DNA from: Gemmatimonadales bacterium
GTDB lineage: Bacteria; Gemmatimonadota; Gemmatimonadetes; Palauibacterales; Palauibacteraceae
Direction: 5' to 3'
NCBI GenBank assembly: GCA_030636765.1
Contig: DAOVWI010000003.1
Coordinates: 1 to 43,932 of the forward strand
Length of the DNA stretch: 43,932 nt
In this document: piece by piece, positions 2,580 to 10,259 of the stretch
Layout of the letters: each line of letters starts with the position of its first letter
Numbering within the stretch: the first letter of the stretch is position 1
Translations under genes and position numbers: made by a program
Notes under the pieces: model-generated
Seen by the model: the letters and a program-made list of their open reading frames with translations, nothing else
Databases searched by the model: none
What the model was told of the DNA's origin: nothing

Positions 2580-2607
2580 GCCTCCGATGAGCCTGAGCCT
2601 CCGATGA
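2574..2607 (+). repeat. 17-bp tandem duplication at the adaptor/RND gene junction
   Basis: GCCTGAGCCTCCGATGA occurs twice back to back (2574-2590 and 2591-2607). Each copy contains a TGA and an ATGA. The first TGA ends the adaptor gene and the second ATG starts the RND gene. The first-copy ATG (2587) opens a six-codon frame, MSLSLR, that stops inside the RND start codon region as ATGA. This looks like a recent slippage duplication that separated two genes that were 7 bases apart. Confidence 0.85.
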
Positions 2608-5600
2608 AGATGAAGGGTTTCCGCCTCACCACGCTGGCCGTCGATCATCCCACCAGCGTCCTCGTTCTGACGGCCATCATCATCCTCGCCGGGCTCGTCT
2701 CCTACTTCAGCATTCCGAAGGAGTCCATGCCGGAGATCACCGTGCCCTTCGTCGCGGTGAACACCGTCTACTCCGGCGTGGCGCCGGAGGACATGGAGAC
2801 CCTGATCACGCGGCCGCTGGAGGAGGATCTCAACGAGATCGCCGATGCGGAGGAGATCCAGTCGACGTCGGTCGAGGGCTACTCGAGCATCGTCATCGAG
2901 TTCAGGGCGGGCATGGACATGACCGAGGCGCTCCAGCTCGTTCGGGAGAAGGTGGACATCGCCAAGGCGGATCTTCCCTCGGCGGCCGAGGAGCCGACCA
3001 TCGTCGAGTTCAACCTCTCCGAGTTCCCGATCATGCAGGTGAACGTCTCCGGGGAGTACAGCCTACGCCGGCTGAAGGAGGTCGCGGAGCGTCTGCAGGA
3101 CCGGCTCGAGCTCATTCCCTCGATCCTCGAGGTCACGCTGTCGGGCGGACTGGAGCGCGAGGTGCAGGTGAACGTCGACCTCGCGAAGTTGCAGTTCTAC
3201 AGGCTCGCTTTCGACGACGTGATAGACGCGATCCGGGAAGAGAACCTCACGATCCCGGGCGGGACGATCGACGTCGGCGAGCGGGAGTACCTGGTTCGGG
3301 TGCCGGGCGAGTTCGAGGACACGCGGCTTATCTCGGACATCGTCATCGCGTCGCCGAACGACAGGCCCGTGTACGTCCGGGACGTGGCCGAGGTGGAGTT
3401 CGGCTTCAAGGAGCGGGAGAGCTTCGCGCGCCTGGACGGCAACCCGGTCGTCACGCTTGGCATCGTAAAGCGCACGGGCCAGAACATCATCGAGACCTCG
3501 GACGCGGTGAAGCGTGTCATCCAGGAGGCGCAGGCGAGCTTCCCGCCGACGACGGTCGTGAAGATCACCTCCGACCAGTCGGAGGACATCCGAAGGATGG
3601 TGTCGAACCTGGAGAACAACATCATCTCCGGGCTGATCCTGGTGGTGGCGGTCCTGCTCTTCTTCCTCGGCATCGCGAACGCGTCGTTCGTCGGCATCGC
3701 GATACCGCTCTCGATGCTGCTCTCCTTCAGCATTATGCAGCTCATCGGTTTCACGATGAACATGGTGGTGCTCTTCAGCCTCATCCTGGCGCTCGGGATG
3801 CTGGTGGACAACGCGATCGTCGTCGTCGAGAACATCTTTCGCTTCCTGGAGCAGGGATACGACCGGAAGGAGGCGGCGAAGCTGGCCACCGCGGAGGTCG
3901 CCATGCCGGTAATCGCCGCGACGGCTACGACCCTGGCGGCGTTCGCTCCGATGGCGTTCTGGCCCGGCCTGATCGGGGAGTTCATGGCGTACCTGCCCCT
4001 CACCCTGATCATCACGCTGAGCGCCTCGCTCTTCGTGGCGCTCGTCGTCAACCCGACGATCTGTTCGCTCTTCATGCGACTGGACGGCGATCGGGCGCCG
4101 GGCCTCACACCCGCGGCCCGCTGGTCGCTGATCGGTCTTGGCGCGCTCTCGTTTGCGGTCGTGTTCGCCATGCGGCCGCTCACGGCGGTGCTGCTGGCCC
4201 TGATGGCGGGGCTGCTTTGGGCCTTGCATCGCTGGGCTCTGTATCCGGCCGGAGGTTGGTTCCAGCACACGGCGCTCCCCACCGTGCTCCGGCGCTACGA
4301 GCGGTTCCTCCGCTGGGCGCTGGCGCACCGGGCGCGGGTGATGGGCGCGACCGCCGGGGTCCTGGTCGCTTCGGTATGGGCGTTCGCGGCGTTCAACGCG
4401 GGGATCGAGTTCTTTCCCGAGGACATCCCTCCCGAGACCGTGTACGTCCAGATCGAGATGCCGCCCGGAACGCGGGCCGAGGCCACCGACCAGGTCGTCC
4501 GCCGGATCGAGCGGGAGCTGGCCGCGCTCCCGACCCAGGCGGACTTCCAATCGGTCGTCGCCACGGTCGGGTCGAGCGGGGACGGCGGCTCCCGCTCGGG
4601 CGCGAACGAGGGAACGGTGGCGGTGAACTTCGTCGATTTCGAGCTGCGCGAGCGGGATTCTTTCGAGACGCTCGAGCTGATGCGCGGCACGGTCGGGAGG
4701 CGGATCGCCGGAGCGGAGATAACGGTCGAGAAGCCGCAGGATGGACCGGGGTCGGGCCCGCCGGTCAGCGTCGAGATCGCCGGCGAGGATGACGAGGTGC
4801 TGAAGCGGTTGGCGGATGAGGCGTACCGGACCCTCGCCAACGCGCCCGTGGCCCGGAAGCTGGAGGGGCTCGACAGTGACATCGCGGATGCGCGGCCGGA
4901 GCTGCGCATCGAGGTGGACCGCGAGCGGGCAAGGCTGTTCGACCTGAGCACGGCGGAGATCGGAGCGACGGTGCGGAGCGCGATCAACGGCACCGAGGTC
5001 TCCGAGTTCCGATTCGGAGAGGAGGAGTACGACATCGTCGTGCGGCTCGCCCCCCGCTACCGGGAGGACCTGGACGCGCTTGCCGACCTGATGATCGTGA
5101 CCGAGGACGGGGACCAGGTGCCGCTCTCCTCGCTCGCCAACTGGAGGGTGGACGAGAGCTATAGCGGGATCAACCGGAAGAGCCTCGAGCGCGTCGCGAC
5201 GATCTCGGCCGACGTGCGGTCGGCGTACAACGCGAACCGGGTGCTCGAGGAGGTGCGGACCGAGCTCGCCGGCTTCGCGCAGTCCCTGCCGGCGGGCTAT
5301 ACGCTGCAGTACACCGGCCAGCAGGAGGATCAGGCCGAGTCGGAGGCGTTCTTGTTCGGGGCGTTCCTGATCGCGCTGATGCTCATCGCCCTGATCCTGG
5401 TCTCGCAGTTCGACTCGGTGGTCCGGCCGCTCATCATCCTGAGCTCGGTCCTCCTCTCGACGGCGGGGGTGTTGATCGGACTGCTCGTGTTTCGCATGCC
5501 GTTCGGGATCATCATGACCGGTGTCGGCGTGATCAGCCTGGCCGGCATCGTCGTCAACAACGCCATCATCCTGGTGGACTACATCGGGGTCCTGAGGAAG

Positions 5601-6029
5601 AGGGACGGCATCGACGCGCACGAGTCGCTGGTCGTCGGCGGGATGACCCGCTTCCGGCCCGTCACGCTGACGGCGGTCACGACGGTGCTGGGGCTCACGC
5701 CGCTGGCGATCGGGCTCAACTTCGACTTCGCCGGTTTCTTCACGCGCCTCAGCCCGAACCTCTTTTGGGGCGGTGAGCAGGCGGCGTGGTGGGGTCCGAT
5801 GGCGATCGCGGTCATCGCCGGGCTCACCTTCGCGACGTTCCTCACGCTCGTGCTCGTGCCCGTGATGCACTCGCTGACCGACGACCTGACGACGTTCCTC
5901 GACCGGCATCTGCGGCGGAGCGAGCAGGAGTCACCGGACGAGTCGGGCTCATCGGACGAGCGAGGAGCGGGCTCGCGGGAGCCGGAGGTACGGCCGGAGA
6001 AGCGGGAGCCGGAGCTCGTTACGGCTTAG
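2604..6029 (+). CDS. RND-family multidrug efflux permease (HAE1/AcrB type)
   Basis: At 1141 residues this is an inner-membrane proton-driven exporter that works with the lipoprotein adaptor just upstream. The usual two-fold layout is present: TM1 ('TSVLVLTAIIILAGLVSYF'), a large periplasmic loop, a TM block with the proton-relay segment 'GMLVDNAIVVVENI' (Asp at about 402 with Asn following, where AcrB has Asp-Asp), then the second half ending in a charged Glu/Ser/Arg tail. Between the halves (about residues 500-550) there are two additional hydrophobic stretches ('LIGLGALSFAVVFAM' and 'LTAVLLALMAGLLWAL'), predicting about 14 rather than 12 TM segments. ATG 2604 and the ATG two codons later are both possible starts. 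Substrates cannot be deduced. Confidence 0.95.
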   Translation: MKMKGFRLTTLAVDHPTSVLVLTAIIILAGLVSYFSIPKESMPEITVPFVAVNTVYSGVAPEDMETLITRPLEEDLNEIADAEEIQSTSVEGYSSIVIEFRAGMDMTEALQLVREKVDIAKADLPSAAEEPTIVEFNLSEFPIMQVNVSGEYSLRRLKEVAERLQDRLELIPSILEVTLSGGLEREVQVNVDLAKLQFYRLAFDDVIDAIREENLTIPGGTIDVGEREYLVRVPGEFEDTRLISDIVIASPNDRPVYVRDVAEVEFGFKERESFARLDGNPVVTLGIVKRTGQNIIETSDAVKRVIQEAQASFPPTTVVKITSDQSEDIRRMVSNLENNIISGLILVVAVLLFFLGIANASFVGIAIPLSMLLSFSIMQLIGFTMNMVVLFSLILALGMLVDNAIVVVENIFRFLEQGYDRKEAAKLATAEVAMPVIAATATTLAAFAPMAFWPGLIGEFMAYLPLTLIITLSASLFVALVVNPTICSLFMRLDGDRAPGLTPAARWSLIGLGALSFAVVFAMRPLTAVLLALMAGLLWALHRWALYPAGGWFQHTALPTVLRRYERFLRWALAHRARVMGATAGVLVASVWAFAAFNAGIEFFPEDIPPETVYVQIEMPPGTRAEATDQVVRRIERELAALPTQADFQSVVATVGSSGDGGSRSGANEGTVAVNFVDFELRERDSFETLELMRGTVGRRIAGAEITVEKPQDGPGSGPPVSVEIAGEDDEVLKRLADEAYRTLANAPVARKLEGLDSDIADARPELRIEVDRERARLFDLSTAEIGATVRSAINGTEVSEFRFGEEEYDIVVRLAPRYREDLDALADLMIVTEDGDQVPLSSLANWRVDESYSGINRKSLERVATISADVRSAYNANRVLEEVRTELAGFAQSLPAGYTLQYTGQQEDQAESEAFLFGAFLIALMLIALILVSQFDSVVRPLIILSSVLLSTAGVLIGLLVFRMPFGIIMTGVGVISLAGIVVNNAIILVDYIGVLRKRDGIDAHESLVVGGMTRFRPVTLTAVTTVLGLTPLAIGLNFDFAGFFTRLSPNLFWGGEQAAWWGPMAIAVIAGLTFATFLTLVLVPVMHSLTDDLTTFLDRHLRRSEQESPDESGSSDERGAGSREPEVRPEKREPELVTA

Positions 6030-6455
6030 CGCGGACGGTCGACCTCTGCACGTAAGGGGAGGGTGGAGGTTCCTCCGCGCGCCCGCAAATCGCTTGCAGC
6101 ACCACAGCTCGCGGGATCCGGGAGCGACTTATGCGCGCTCCGAAATCCTCCGCCTCCCCTGGGAGAGGTCGACGTGCGGTGACGGGGAGCACGGTCCGCC
6201 ACGCCCCTCGGCAACCGAGACGCTTGTGGCGGGGCCGTCCTCATCAAGAGGGCTGCTGGTGGGCCGCCAGCAGCAGCCAGTCGGCAAGCCTTCGCGATCT
6301 CCCGGGCGCCCATCTCCGCGTTCGCCCTTCCGGCCAGCCGCTTGACCAGGACCAGGCGGCTCCCGTCGACAGAGTGCCCTCCCGTCCGTACGATATCCGA
6401 ACCTCCGTCACAGGATTCCGTCGAACAAGTCTTTTCACTGACAGCCGAGGTCGAA
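6030..6455. other. 426-bp gap: palindromic element plus two further stem-loops
   Basis: No convincing gene lies here. It holds the left palindromic repeat (6038-6173). Next comes a branched hairpin at 6196-6232, with outer stem CCGCCAC/GTGGCGG and inner CTCGG-CAA-CCGAG. A third hairpin, GCTGCTGG-N7-CCAGCAGC, lies at 6252-6274. The hairpins lack a T-tract but sit where transcription of the RND operon should end. A minus-strand ORF across the gap has no recognisable protein character. Confidence 0.6.
6038..6173 (+). repeat. ERIC/MITE-like imperfect palindrome, copy 1
   Basis: This 136-bp element is bounded by GTCGACCTCT on the left and AGAGGTCGAC on the right, so its ends are inverted repeats. 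The two arms remain partly complementary for about 60 bases each (left GGTGGAGGTTCC..GCGCGC, right GCGCGC..GGATTTCGG read on the other strand). A near-identical copy in the opposite orientation is at 8708-8841. The shared core includes CCGCAAATCGCTTGCA and GGGAGCGACTTATGCGCGC. Size and symmetry resemble ERIC sequences or a miniature inverted-repeat element. No transposase is present. Confidence 0.8.
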
Positions 6456-8387
6456 ATGACATGCCTGCTGAGACTCGCGGCTATCTCTCTCCTTCTTCTC
6501 ATCGCTGGTCCCGCTTCCGCGCGGTCCCAGGTTCCCCCGCCACCTGACGGTGCCGCGGCGCTGAACGACGTCTACCGGGGCAGCACGTACTCGCCCTACG
6601 CCGGCCGCAACTTCCCGAGCCGCGTGTTCTGGGGCGACACGCATCTGCACACCGCGTTGTCCATCGACGCCGGGGCATTCGGCAACCGGCTGGGACTGGA
6701 CGACGCCTACCGGTTCGCTCGGGGAGACGAGGTGACCACTTCGACCGGACTGAAGGCCCGGTTGTCCCGACCTCTAGACTTTCTGGTGATCGCGGACCAC
6801 TCGGACATGATGGGCTTCTTCCCTGATCTGTTCGCGGGCGCCGATCATATCCTCAGCGACCCGCTCGGCAGGGACTTCTACGATCGGATCCAGGCCGGTG
6901 ACGGTGTCAGCGTGGCGCTGGAGATCATCAGCATGGCCTCGCAAGGGGACCTCCCCGAGTTCATGGAGGTGGGCTACAGCCCCGACTCGAAGCCCTACAG
7001 GAATGCCTGGCAAGCGACCGTGGACGCCGCGGAGGCGTTCGACGATCCTGGCCACTTCACGGCGTTCATCGGCTACGAGTGGACCTCCCTGGTCCGCGGC
7101 AACAACATGCACCGTGTCGTGATCTACCGGGACGGCGGCGACAAAGGGAGCCAGATGGTTCCCTTCACGATGACCCCCCCGGGAAGCACGAATCCTCGTG
7201 ACCTGTGGCGGTGGCTCGAGACGTACGAGGAGCGGACGGGGGGCGAGGTCCTGGCCATCGCGCACAACGGCAACCTGGCCAACGGCATCATGTTCCCACT
7301 CGAGGCCCAGTACGACGGCCGGGTCCTGGACGAGGAGTACGTCACGACGCGCGCGCGTTGGGAACCCCTCTACGAGGTGACCCAGATCAAGGGCGATGGC
7401 GAAACGCATCCCTTCCTCTCGCCCGACGACGAGTTCGCGGACTACGAGACGTGGGACGTCGGCAACCTGGACGTGTCGGAGGCCAAGACCGACAACATGT
7501 TGGCAGGGGAGTACGCCCGCGAAGCCCTCAAGCGGGGACTGGTGATCGAGGACCGCTTCGGCACGAACCCCTATGAGTTCGGGATGATCGGATCCACCGA
7601 CAGCCACACGTCGCTGGCTACTGCCCAGGAGGACAATTTCTTCGGCAAGCACTCCGGCTACGAGCCCAGTCCGGAACGCATGACTCACCCCTTCATGGCG
7701 ACCGCGAGCGGTACGATCTACGCCTGGCAGCAGGTCTCGTCGGGGCTTGCTGCGGTGTGGGCCACGGAGAACACTCGCGAGGCCATCTTTGACGCCATGG
7801 AGCGGAAGGAGGTCTACGCGACCACCGGCTCGCGGCTGGCTGTCCGCTTCTTCGGCGGTTGGGACTACACCGAACAGGATATGAACAGCCGACAGCCGGC
7901 GTTCGCCGGCTACGAAAAGGGCGTGCCAATGGGCGGCACGCTACGCGCCAGGCCTGCCGGCGCGGGAGCACCCACGTTCATGGTCTATTCCCTTCGGGAC
8001 GTCCAGGGCGCCAATCTCGACCGCATCCAAATCATCAAGGGCTGGCTGGGCGACGACGGTCAGACCCACGAAGTGGTCTACGACGTCGCGTGGTCCGGAG
8101 ACCGGCAGCCTGGGTCCGACGGCAGGCTGCCCCCGGTGGGTAACACCGTGGACGTCGAAAACGCCAACTGGACCAACACGATCGGCGCCGCCGAGCTCGG
8201 TACCGTGTGGACCGATCCGGACTTCGATCCGGATCAGAAGGCGTTCTACTACGCCAGAGTCATCGAGATCCCGACGCCCCGGTGGTCGACATACGACGCG
8301 TTCCGCTTCGGAATCGACCTCCCGGAGGGTGCACCGACGTCGACCCAGGAGCGAGCGTATACGTCACCGATTTGGTACGCGCAGTAA
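6456..8387 (+). CDS. DUF3604 domain protein, exported, PHP-like metal-site motifs
   Basis: This 643-residue protein starts at ATG 6456 (GAGG six bases upstream) with a signal peptide '[21 protein letters not shown]', so it acts outside the cytoplasm. The DUF3604 family resembles PHP-type metallohydrolases. Metal-ligand candidates are visible: 'FWGDTHLHT' (His63, His65), 'VIADHSD' (Asp114, His115), 'IAHNGN', and 'GSTDSHTS' (Asp382, His384). The reaction is not established for this family, so no substrate is assigned. The gene stands alone, flanked by inverted copies of a palindromic element and followed by a perfect stem-loop. That suggests an independently acquired single-gene unit. The earlier in-frame start at 6342 would bury the signal peptide and was rejected. 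Confidence 0.88.
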
Positions 8388-8440
8388 CCGAACAACCGCC
8401 GAGGCTAGTAGACACAGGTTCCAAGCAGTAAGTAGCGGCA

Positions 8441-8479
8441 AGAGGGCAAAGCCCGCGATTCTCGCGGGCTTTGCCCTCT
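8441..8479 (+). terminator. Perfect 18-bp stem-loop after the DUF3604 gene
   Basis: AGAGGGCAAAGCCCGCGA (8441-8458) pairs without a mismatch to TCGCGGGCTTTGCCCTCT (8462-8479) around a TTC loop. It begins 53 bases after the stop codon. The AAAGCCCGCG/CGCGGGCTTT core is typical of intrinsic terminators in GC-rich bacteria, although no T-run follows. Being symmetric, it could also end transcription from the opposite side. Confidence 0.82.
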
Positions 8480-8603
8480 ACAGGGCGAACTTCCTGGGCG
8501 AGGATAGGCGCGATCCGGGCTCTCACGGAAAACACGGAGGTGTGGGACGACGTGCCCACGGCACAAGACGCTGCGGCACAAGCGCTCATTCCCGTCCTGT
8601 CAA

Positions 8604-8618
8604 CTACTGTTATAGTAG
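8604..8618. promoter_or_regulatory. Orphan operator-like palindrome
   Basis: CTACT-GTTAT-AGTAG is a short AT-rich dyad in a GC-rich convergent gap. A TTGACA reads away from it on the minus strand (8598-8603). Winged-helix repressors of the BlaI/PadR kind bind dyads of similar size, but no regulator is adjacent and neither direction leads into a gene start, so function is doubtful. Confidence 0.3.
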
Positions 8619-8707
8619 ATCGATCGCCGTGGCGACGGTCCAAACGACAGGACCGACCCGGTGGCTTCCAGCGGCGCAGTAGACGGCGCGGCTATCCGGC
8701 GCGGTGG

Positions 8708-8841
8708 GTCGACCTCTCTCAGGGAAGGCGGAGGATCCCGGAGCGCGCATAAGTCGCTCCCGGATCCGGCGGGCCGTGGTGATGCAAGCGATTTGCGGGC
8801 GCGCGGAGGAACCTCCGCCTCCCCCACAAGAAAAGGTCGAC
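8708..8841 (-). repeat. ERIC/MITE-like imperfect palindrome, copy 2 (inverted)
   Basis: This 134-bp element is bounded by GTCGACCTCT and AGGTCGAC. Its reverse complement aligns along its full length with copy 1 at 6038-6173; the blocks GGAGGTTCCTCCGCGCGC and GGGAGCGACTTATGCGCGC are identical, and most differences lie near the ends and centre. The two copies face each other across the DUF3604 gene. Confidence 0.8.
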
Positions 8842-8856
8842 GTACGGACGGTCAGG

Positions 8857-10194
8857 CTAGTCGATCGGGAGGGTTGCGACCACGGTGCGGACGGTGCCGT
8901 CGGGGCCCGTGTCCGTCCACGCCAGGATCACGTCGTTGCCCAGCGCCGCCATGCGGGGAAAGCCGCTCGCCCGGCTCACGTCAGTGATGGCGACGGTCGC
9001 CGGAAGGCTCGCCTCGCCGTCCGGCCGGACACGCCGGGCCCTCACGTCGGCGCCCCGATCCGTGGTCTCGAGCCACACGACCAGCGCCGCCCCGTCCTTG
9101 AGCAGCATGACGTCGACGCGGCCCAGGGGTCTTCCCTCGTCCACCCGGCTCGGCTCGCCGAACGTCTTCCCTGCATCGCCGGAGAAGGCGACCTGCACCT
9201 TCGGCTCGTCGTTCGCGGCGGTGTACCACGCGACGGCGACCCGTTCTTTCTTCGCGGCGACCGCGGGGCCGTTCACGGGGCACGCGGGCATGTACCACCC
9301 ATCGGCGTGGATCGTGGAGGGAGCCGTCCATTCGCTCCCGACCAGGCGGACGACGGAGATGTCCCGGATCTCGCTCTCCGACCGATCCCGGTACACGAGG
9401 ACCGGCCCCTCGGAGGTGAGCGCGGCGGAGGTCTGACAACAGTCGCAGGAGCGGGCATCGAGGAGGGTCTGGCTTCCTGGGGCGCCATCGACGCCGATCT
9501 CCGCGTACCGGAGGGACATGTCGCCCTCGAGCGGTCCGCCCTCGGCCACCTCCGCGAAGTCTCGTCCGTCGAGCCACACGGCCGCCAGAGCGCCATCCGC
9601 CGCCGGGAAGAGGGATACGAAGCCGTGCTCCGTCAGAGTCCCGTCAACGTGGGGCGTCACGGGGTCGCTCCACGAAAGCCCCCCGTCTACGGAGCGGGCG
9701 ATCCGAACGCCGTACGCGTACGTGCCCGGACCCTCGCGCTGGAGCCAATGCGCCGCGAGAGTGCCGTCTGGGAGCTCCACGATGGACGGGAAGTCGGCCC
9801 AGTTCACGAAGAAGTCCTCGCCGCGCGCGATCGTGTGCGGCTCGCTCCACCCTGATGCGCTCAGCTCGGCCATCCGGACGGCATGGCCGCTCTCATCGGG
9901 CTCCTGCCAGCTCATGTAGACGGTGCCCTCGCGGCCTGCCCACAGGTAGGGCGTCATGCTGCCCCGGCCGGTCGGGGGTGGCACCTCCCGCAGCCCCGTG
10001 AAGGTGGACCCGAGCGCGGGGCCCTCGGTCTCGTCCGGGCCGTCGGCCCCGATCCGCCGTTCGCCAGAGGCTTCGCCGCTCGCCTCCGGCCCACACGAGA
10101 GGAGAGCGACGGAGGTCACGAGGATCGCCCCGGCTTGGCTGAGCGGTTGATTCACGGAGAAAAGGCACCTGCGGCACTTCCTGAAGAACGGCAT
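8857..10194 (-). CDS. BNR/sialidase-fold exported lipoprotein
   Basis: This 445-residue protein starts at ATG 10194 with a signal sequence ending in a lipobox 'SVALLSC', so it is probably membrane-anchored outside the cytoplasm. The body is a six-bladed-propeller-like repeat protein with Asp-box-type turns: 'SVDGGLSWSDP' and 'SGDAGKTFGEP'. A central cluster 'SCDCCQT' is distinctive and could bind a metal or form disulfides. It is annotated elsewhere as sialidase/exo-alpha-sialidase-like by fold, but I do not see enough catalytic detail (Arg triad, Tyr/Glu pair) to claim sialidase activity. A TTG start at 10230 in the same frame is possible but would lengthen the signal region. It reads toward the palindromic repeat and has no partner genes nearby. 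Confidence 0.8.
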   Translation of the reverse strand: MPFFRKCRRCLFSVNQPLSQAGAILVTSVALLSCGPEASGEASGERRIGADGPDETEGPALGSTFTGLREVPPPTGRGSMTPYLWAGREGTVYMSWQEPDESGHAVRMAELSASGWSEPHTIARGEDFFVNWADFPSIVELPDGTLAAHWLQREGPGTYAYGVRIARSVDGGLSWSDPVTPHVDGTLTEHGFVSLFPAADGALAAVWLDGRDFAEVAEGGPLEGDMSLRYAEIGVDGAPGSQTLLDARSCDCCQTSAALTSEGPVLVYRDRSESEIRDISVVRLVGSEWTAPSTIHADGWYMPACPVNGPAVAAKKERVAVAWYTAANDEPKVQVAFSGDAGKTFGEPSRVDEGRPLGRVDVMLLKDGAALVVWLETTDRGADVRARRVRPDGEASLPATVAITDVSRASGFPRMAALGNDVILAWTDTGPDGTVRTVVATLPID

Positions 10195-10259
10195 GGAGAA
10201 CAACTTGCCGGCAGCTGCCGTCGGCCGCAATCAGCGCGCGGGCTACACGGAGGGGGAGG

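Follow-up and report, generated by a model that had tools for sequence, protein, structure and literature searches.

Inverted hairpin elements framing a DUF3604 gene are members of an apparently uncatalogued hairpin repeat family of Gemmatimonadota

A DUF3604 gene between two inverted hairpin elements

The window, the whole 43,932-nt stretch of DNA that was analysed, comes from a draft genome (G000) of 2.3 Mb that is 83% complete, and all of the genomes compared with it belong to Gemmatimonadota. In this window, an RND efflux gene (ACR_tran in Pfam; 2604–6029, plus strand) ends 8 bp upstream of a 136-bp hairpin element, L (6038–6173, minus strand), the GGA/GGA core of which lies at 6073–6141 on the minus strand. 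A second element of 134 bp, R (8708–8841, plus strand), has its core at 8740–8808 on the plus strand, and 15 bp past R lies the stop of a convergent gene (8857–10230, minus strand) with a weak BNR_2 match below the Pfam cut-off. With the model R2, L and R gave E values of 6.7e-14 and 6.4e-13, respectively. The sole gene inside the block is a DUF3604 gene (PF12228, Pfam E 1.3e-245) on the plus strand at 6456–8387, with its probable ATG start at 6456 and its stop at 8387. A terminator-like hairpin on the same strand (8441–8479), read directly from the sequence as AGAGGGCAAAGCCCGCGA / TCGCGGGCTTTGCCCTCT, lies 3' of this gene.

In a repeat search, the top inverted pair of the 43.9-kb window was 6056–6190 / 8691–8825 (135 nt, 86% complementary), and the runner-up was just 44 nt long at 70%. 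When L and R were aligned, 120 of 136 positions were identical in the inverted orientation (88%), compared to 95 of 143 in the direct orientation. These results indicate that the inverted relation is real despite the palindromy of each unit, each of which is an imperfect palindrome with GTCGAC at both ends. The arms are common to both elements, i.e., they are copies of one another. L and R fold more stably than shuffled sequences, with z values of -2.8 to -4.1 as DNA, and of -4.3 and -5.4 as RNA. Together with the Pfam assignments, the repeat search and the alignment bear out the sequence-only reading that an inverted pair of about 135 bp surrounds the DUF3604 gene and its terminator only.

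In addition, the 9-bp direct repeat CGGACGGTC occurs on the plus strand on both sides of the block, at 6032–6040, where its last three bases lie within L, and at 8845–8853, beginning three bases past R. The chance of any shared 9-mer between the 20-nt flanks was 0.0013, and the repeat is found on both sides of the block in G002, a congener described below, as well. Given its offset from the element ends, a target duplication is at most suggested.

The junction in congeners

In G002, which represents a sister species (contig JAPULH010000006.1), the block lies at the orthologous place in the same orientation, and the DUF3604 protein is 97% identical. L and R differ from each other by 12%, whereas each differs from its counterpart in G002 by 6–7%, indicating that the pair predates the species split and that its two copies were not homogenised afterwards. 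The leader between L and the DUF3604 gene (window 6182–6456 versus L010 7995–8579) differs from that of G002 by about 300 bp, and the flanks are about 93% identical.

The RND gene, together with the convergent BNR-like and GGDEF genes, forms a neighbourhood that is partly conserved in the genus. A comparison of sister genomes had been proposed in search of an empty site, and such sites were found: in G003 and G005, the RND/BNR-like junction has neither element nor gene, with 96 bp between the coding ends in G003, although both sites are too diverged for a base-level comparison. In G004, the junction (L061 345–1800, G004:C80) contains one diverged element oriented like L, followed by an LtrA-family gene. 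The arrangement that would have counted against the cassette idea of the sequence-only reading, both repeats at this site in a relative lacking the gene, was not encountered; the nearest approach was this single element of G004 with its other gene. The block of L, R and the DUF3604 gene is restricted to the two sister species among the congeners examined.

The presence of the DUF3604 gene in two species and of the LtrA gene in G004 implies that the junction took different single genes, each beside such a hairpin. Judged from these gene contents, the RND/BNR-like junction looks like an intake site for single genes. In a tree of 18 homologs, the DUF3604 proteins of G000 and G002 grouped with the copy of G006, which belongs to another genus of the same family (support 98/96), and not with the paralogs of G001, G004 and G005. 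This placement would be compatible with acquisition and equally with ordinary paralogy. A PADLOC search for a defence role gave no match for either the DUF3604 or the LtrA protein, and no relative of DUF3604 was found in the PDB at E 0.01.

The hairpin repeat family

With a first model, based on four copies, the G004 element was recovered together with a candidate in G051, which belongs to another family of the class. The second round consisted of a pattern search followed by a covariance model from 18 members. Two first-model matches were set aside: one in G004:C6, which by eye resembles coding sequence, and one in G001:C195. The latter is a perfect fold-back at a contig end (L111 3571–4022), where inverted arms of 155 bp enclose a GC-rich hairpin, and is probably an assembly artefact at a palindrome. 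The plain pattern GGAGCGCGCN{40,70}GCGCGCGGAG gave many chance matches in coding sequence, and the reversed control matched too; pattern matches were retained only when they had a palindromic context.

With nine candidates scored per genome and E values up to 0.001, the family was detected in at least 17 of the 394 genomes of the class, in at least 11 genera. At least 52 copies are present in G382, eight each in G155 and G327, seven in G068, and six in G272. In the 83% complete 2.3 Mb of G000, no copy was detected besides L and R. The suggestion that the two elements are chance insertions of a family abundant in their own genome is therefore not supported, the abundance being found elsewhere. 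In G000, G002, and G004, every good-scoring copy lies at this one junction; the congeners G001 and G003 have weak matches elsewhere, in which the plan is kept and the GC helix is altered (GCGAGC/GCTCGC and GCGAAC/GTTCGC).

In 1.16 Mb of other loci, no match was obtained at E < 1. Rfam gave no match at the gathering score in the window, and a G382 copy resembled only miRNA-like long hairpins, at sub-threshold scores. The family had no match in plasmids or phages, and a plasmid or phage origin was set aside. A literature search, confined to open-access articles, did not turn up any description of a comparable Gemmatimonadota repeat. These results indicate that L and R are members of a class-wide, apparently uncatalogued family of dispersed hairpin repeats of Gemmatimonadota.

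The members share a common plan, in which an outer stem is combined with a GGA/GGA internal loop, a GCGCGC/GCGCGC helix, an inner stem, and a tip that varies. Few features are as steady as the purine loop, with A in 77 and G in 76 of the 79 matches at two of its positions. In the structure-fitted alignment, double changes occurred at all 14 pairs of the outer stem, with a covariation of 0.616 compared to 0.156 for shuffled and 0.08–0.13 for slid alignments. In an unfitted alignment of 18 rows, double changes were seen at 13 of the 14 pairs, and the covariation was 0.280 compared to 0.113 for shuffled alignments.

In G382, the identity between copies is about 84% (median) in the inner part, about 58% in the adjoining 12 nt, and 30%, approximately the random level, in the arm 21–40 nt from the core. 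In an ungapped count, as many as 37 of the 40 arm positions are paired within a single copy. Local alignments of the arms of 71 copies contained 1734 Watson-Crick pairs, 55 G.T, 31 A.C, and 109 other mismatches; local alignment favours matches and flatters these pairing percentages, whereas the ungapped count is independent of that effect. Whole-element copying does not fit arms that are unrelated between copies yet almost perfectly paired within them, since the arms would be copied as well, and slow compensatory drift fits poorly, since many G.U and mismatched intermediates would be expected. The pattern, which rests mainly on this one draft genome of 310 contigs, fits the insertion of the core into existing palindromes, the copying of the flank as an inverted duplication, or template switching that corrects imperfect palindromes. 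Core-less long hairpins, several of them built of short repeats, also occur in G382, and at least one of them shares AGCGGCAG with the arms of core-bearing copies, making existing hairpins possible as targets. The arms of L and R are alike, so that the unrelated-arm feature is absent between them.

Among the intergenic core-less hairpins of G382, those at L289 135–203, L291 9760–9834, and L296 212–294 consist of inverted runs of short tandem repeats (e.g., GTGAGACGTGAGAC / GTCTCACGTCTCAC).

Paired copies were found in several genomes. In G068, four of the five sites fetched are inverted pairs that share the polarity of L and R and have a spacing of 65–93 bp. Between two of these pairs, which are oppositely oriented and differ in their gene contexts, 87% identity extends over about 340 bp, indicating that the pair was duplicated as a unit. 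The unit ends in GGCTCCGTG-like and CACGGAGC sequences. These two-hairpin units of about 335 bp (L324 5010–5344; L334), found at several sites in both orientations, look like a non-autonomous mobile unit. In G117, an inverted pair of this kind has a spacing of 218 bp. In G155 (L280, G155:C219, 1191–2458), a gene for an MBL-fold hydrolase lies between inverted copies that are identical at 105 of 111 positions (95%), with a polarity opposite to that of L and R, and several close pairs in G382 are direct. The opposite polarity in G155 and the direct pairs in G382 indicate that the paired arrangement is optional. Single genes between inverted copies are therefore present in at least two independent cases.

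When genes were called heuristically, the closest gene boundary was a 3' end in 33 of the 44 copies (p 0.001), and the median distances to 3' and 5' ends are 33 bp and 77 bp, respectively. Divergent gaps are depleted (6 of 44 versus 44 of 153, p 0.05). The orientation of the core relative to the neighbouring gene is mixed.

Origin of the block and relation to known repeats

REP, BIME, and REPIN sequences (the GTAG and CGTC families) are dispersed intergenic palindromes located mainly downstream of coding regions, between tandem or convergent genes (PMC3733652). REPs are 20–40 bp long, with stems of 5–13 bp and an unpaired GTAG or CGTC tag at the foot; they often form inverted dimers with spacers of 20–100 bp, and some families have no known transposase (PMC3733652). 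The present family resembles REPs in its placement, being dispersed and mostly behind coding regions. In contrast, its unit is about 110–150 bp long, with stems of about 15 to more than 40 bp and a median aligned arm of 25 bp. Its foot bears no tag: the feet of L and R are paired through GTCGAC, and the conserved GGA lies inside the hairpin. The Y1 transposase of REP/RAYT systems (PF01797) is absent from G000, G002, and the copy-richest genomes (G382, G327), all possibly incomplete drafts. The family works like REPs and MITEs, yet it departs from REPs in both size and tag.

In TIME-COMPs and mobile insertion cassettes, two copies of a short non-autonomous element, commonly inverted, frame a gene, and a short direct repeat lies outside them (PMC13367494, PMC4133298). 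TIMEs have Tn3-type terminal repeats and direct repeats of 5–6 bp (PMC13367494, PMC4133298). L and R likewise are two inverted, 88% identical copies around a cargo gene, whereas the block ends in long hairpins that show no recognised transposon end, and the direct repeat is 9 bp long and slightly offset. No autonomous transposon with matching ends was found: the family had no match in plasmids or phages, and none of ten genes adjoining or between copies encodes a transposase. As a lead only, mitochondrial double-hairpin elements are reportedly mobile palindromic units of adjacent hairpins, like the G068 units; these are organellar.

We consider it probable that this is a REP/MITE-like hairpin family, and that the DUF3604 cassette, framed by the inverted pair, entered the convergent junction before the sister species split. 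In such a scheme, the family would be a non-autonomous DNA element that depends on an enzyme working in trans, and its copies would settle at or within hairpins close to gene ends. The DUF3604 gene may have entered the junction between, or along with, an inverted hairpin pair, and the hairpins would have remained thereafter as structures at the 3' ends of the RND and BNR-like genes. The mobilised cassette proposed in the sequence-only reading thereby stands in part: the block occurs in two sister species, the junction is empty in two congeners, and 9-bp repeats flank the block, with the hairpin elements themselves as no more than possible movers. Several points count against the cassette explanation, namely that no enzyme is linked to the family, that the 9-bp repeat is slightly displaced from the element ends, that pairs elsewhere can have the opposite polarity (G155) or be direct (G382), that L and R share their arms, and that the G003 and G005 sites are too diverged to be compared base by base.

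The arms shared by L and R, unlike those of the dispersed G382 copies, make a local inverted duplication possible, although we regard it as the less probable course. One ancestral hairpin, such as that of G004, would have been copied in inverted orientation during the repair or rearrangement that brought in the DUF3604 gene, and no repeat would have transposed. The confinement of the good-scoring copies of G000, G002, and G004 to this junction agrees with such an event, whereas the dispersal of the family in other genomes, the same-polarity pairs duplicated as units in G068, and the weak copies elsewhere in G001 and G003 argue against it.

It is rather doubtful that the hairpins are mere 3'-end structures, either terminators or protectors of mRNA ends, of the RND and BNR-like genes, with the DUF3604 gene as an unrelated insertion. 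The closeness of L and R to the two stops is what would be expected, family copies elsewhere hug gene 3' ends, and the G004 hairpin adjoins the RND stop with a different gene beside it. The excess of G.T over A.C in the arms (55 versus 31) is a weak hint of strand-specific RNA pairing. However, L and R are homologous inverted copies, which independent terminators would not be, the core faces either way with respect to the neighbouring gene across the family, and the G068 pairs moved as units.

We tentatively add, as an unlikely course, that the core spreads while making its own arms, through inverted duplication of the flanking target or through entry of the core into the tip of a gene-end hairpin, which would leave every copy within an almost perfect palindrome of the local sequence, and that inverted pairs can carry a gene. 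In the literature searched, no such mobility mode was described for bacterial repeats.

An invertible segment, in which recombination between L and R would flip the DUF3604 gene and switch its expression, is very improbable. A single gene with inverted repeats at both ends would suit such a switch, but the sequence-only suggestion of inversion finds no indication in its favour. The orientation is the same in G000 and G002, a repeat divergence of 12% is unusual for an active switch, and the leader and terminator of the DUF3604 gene lie inside the segment, so that a flip would not obviously switch the gene. That the palindromes arose by fold-back or chimeric assembly, as the G001:C195 contig end illustrates, has a negligible chance, since L and R are present in two species whose genomes were assembled separately, which largely refutes this for both elements, copies lie mid-contig in long assemblies (G272, a single contig; G327, six contigs), and the core is conserved across genera.

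Overall, starting from a pair that seemed a mere local oddity, these results give a phylum that has received little study a large family of structured repeats. The DUF3604 pair, the G155 pair, and the duplicated units of G068 suggest that such repeats may help to frame single genes. If the arms are made on insertion, the family would offer a testable new way for a repeat to spread, and if the core targets terminators, it would be a natural probe of transcript ends.
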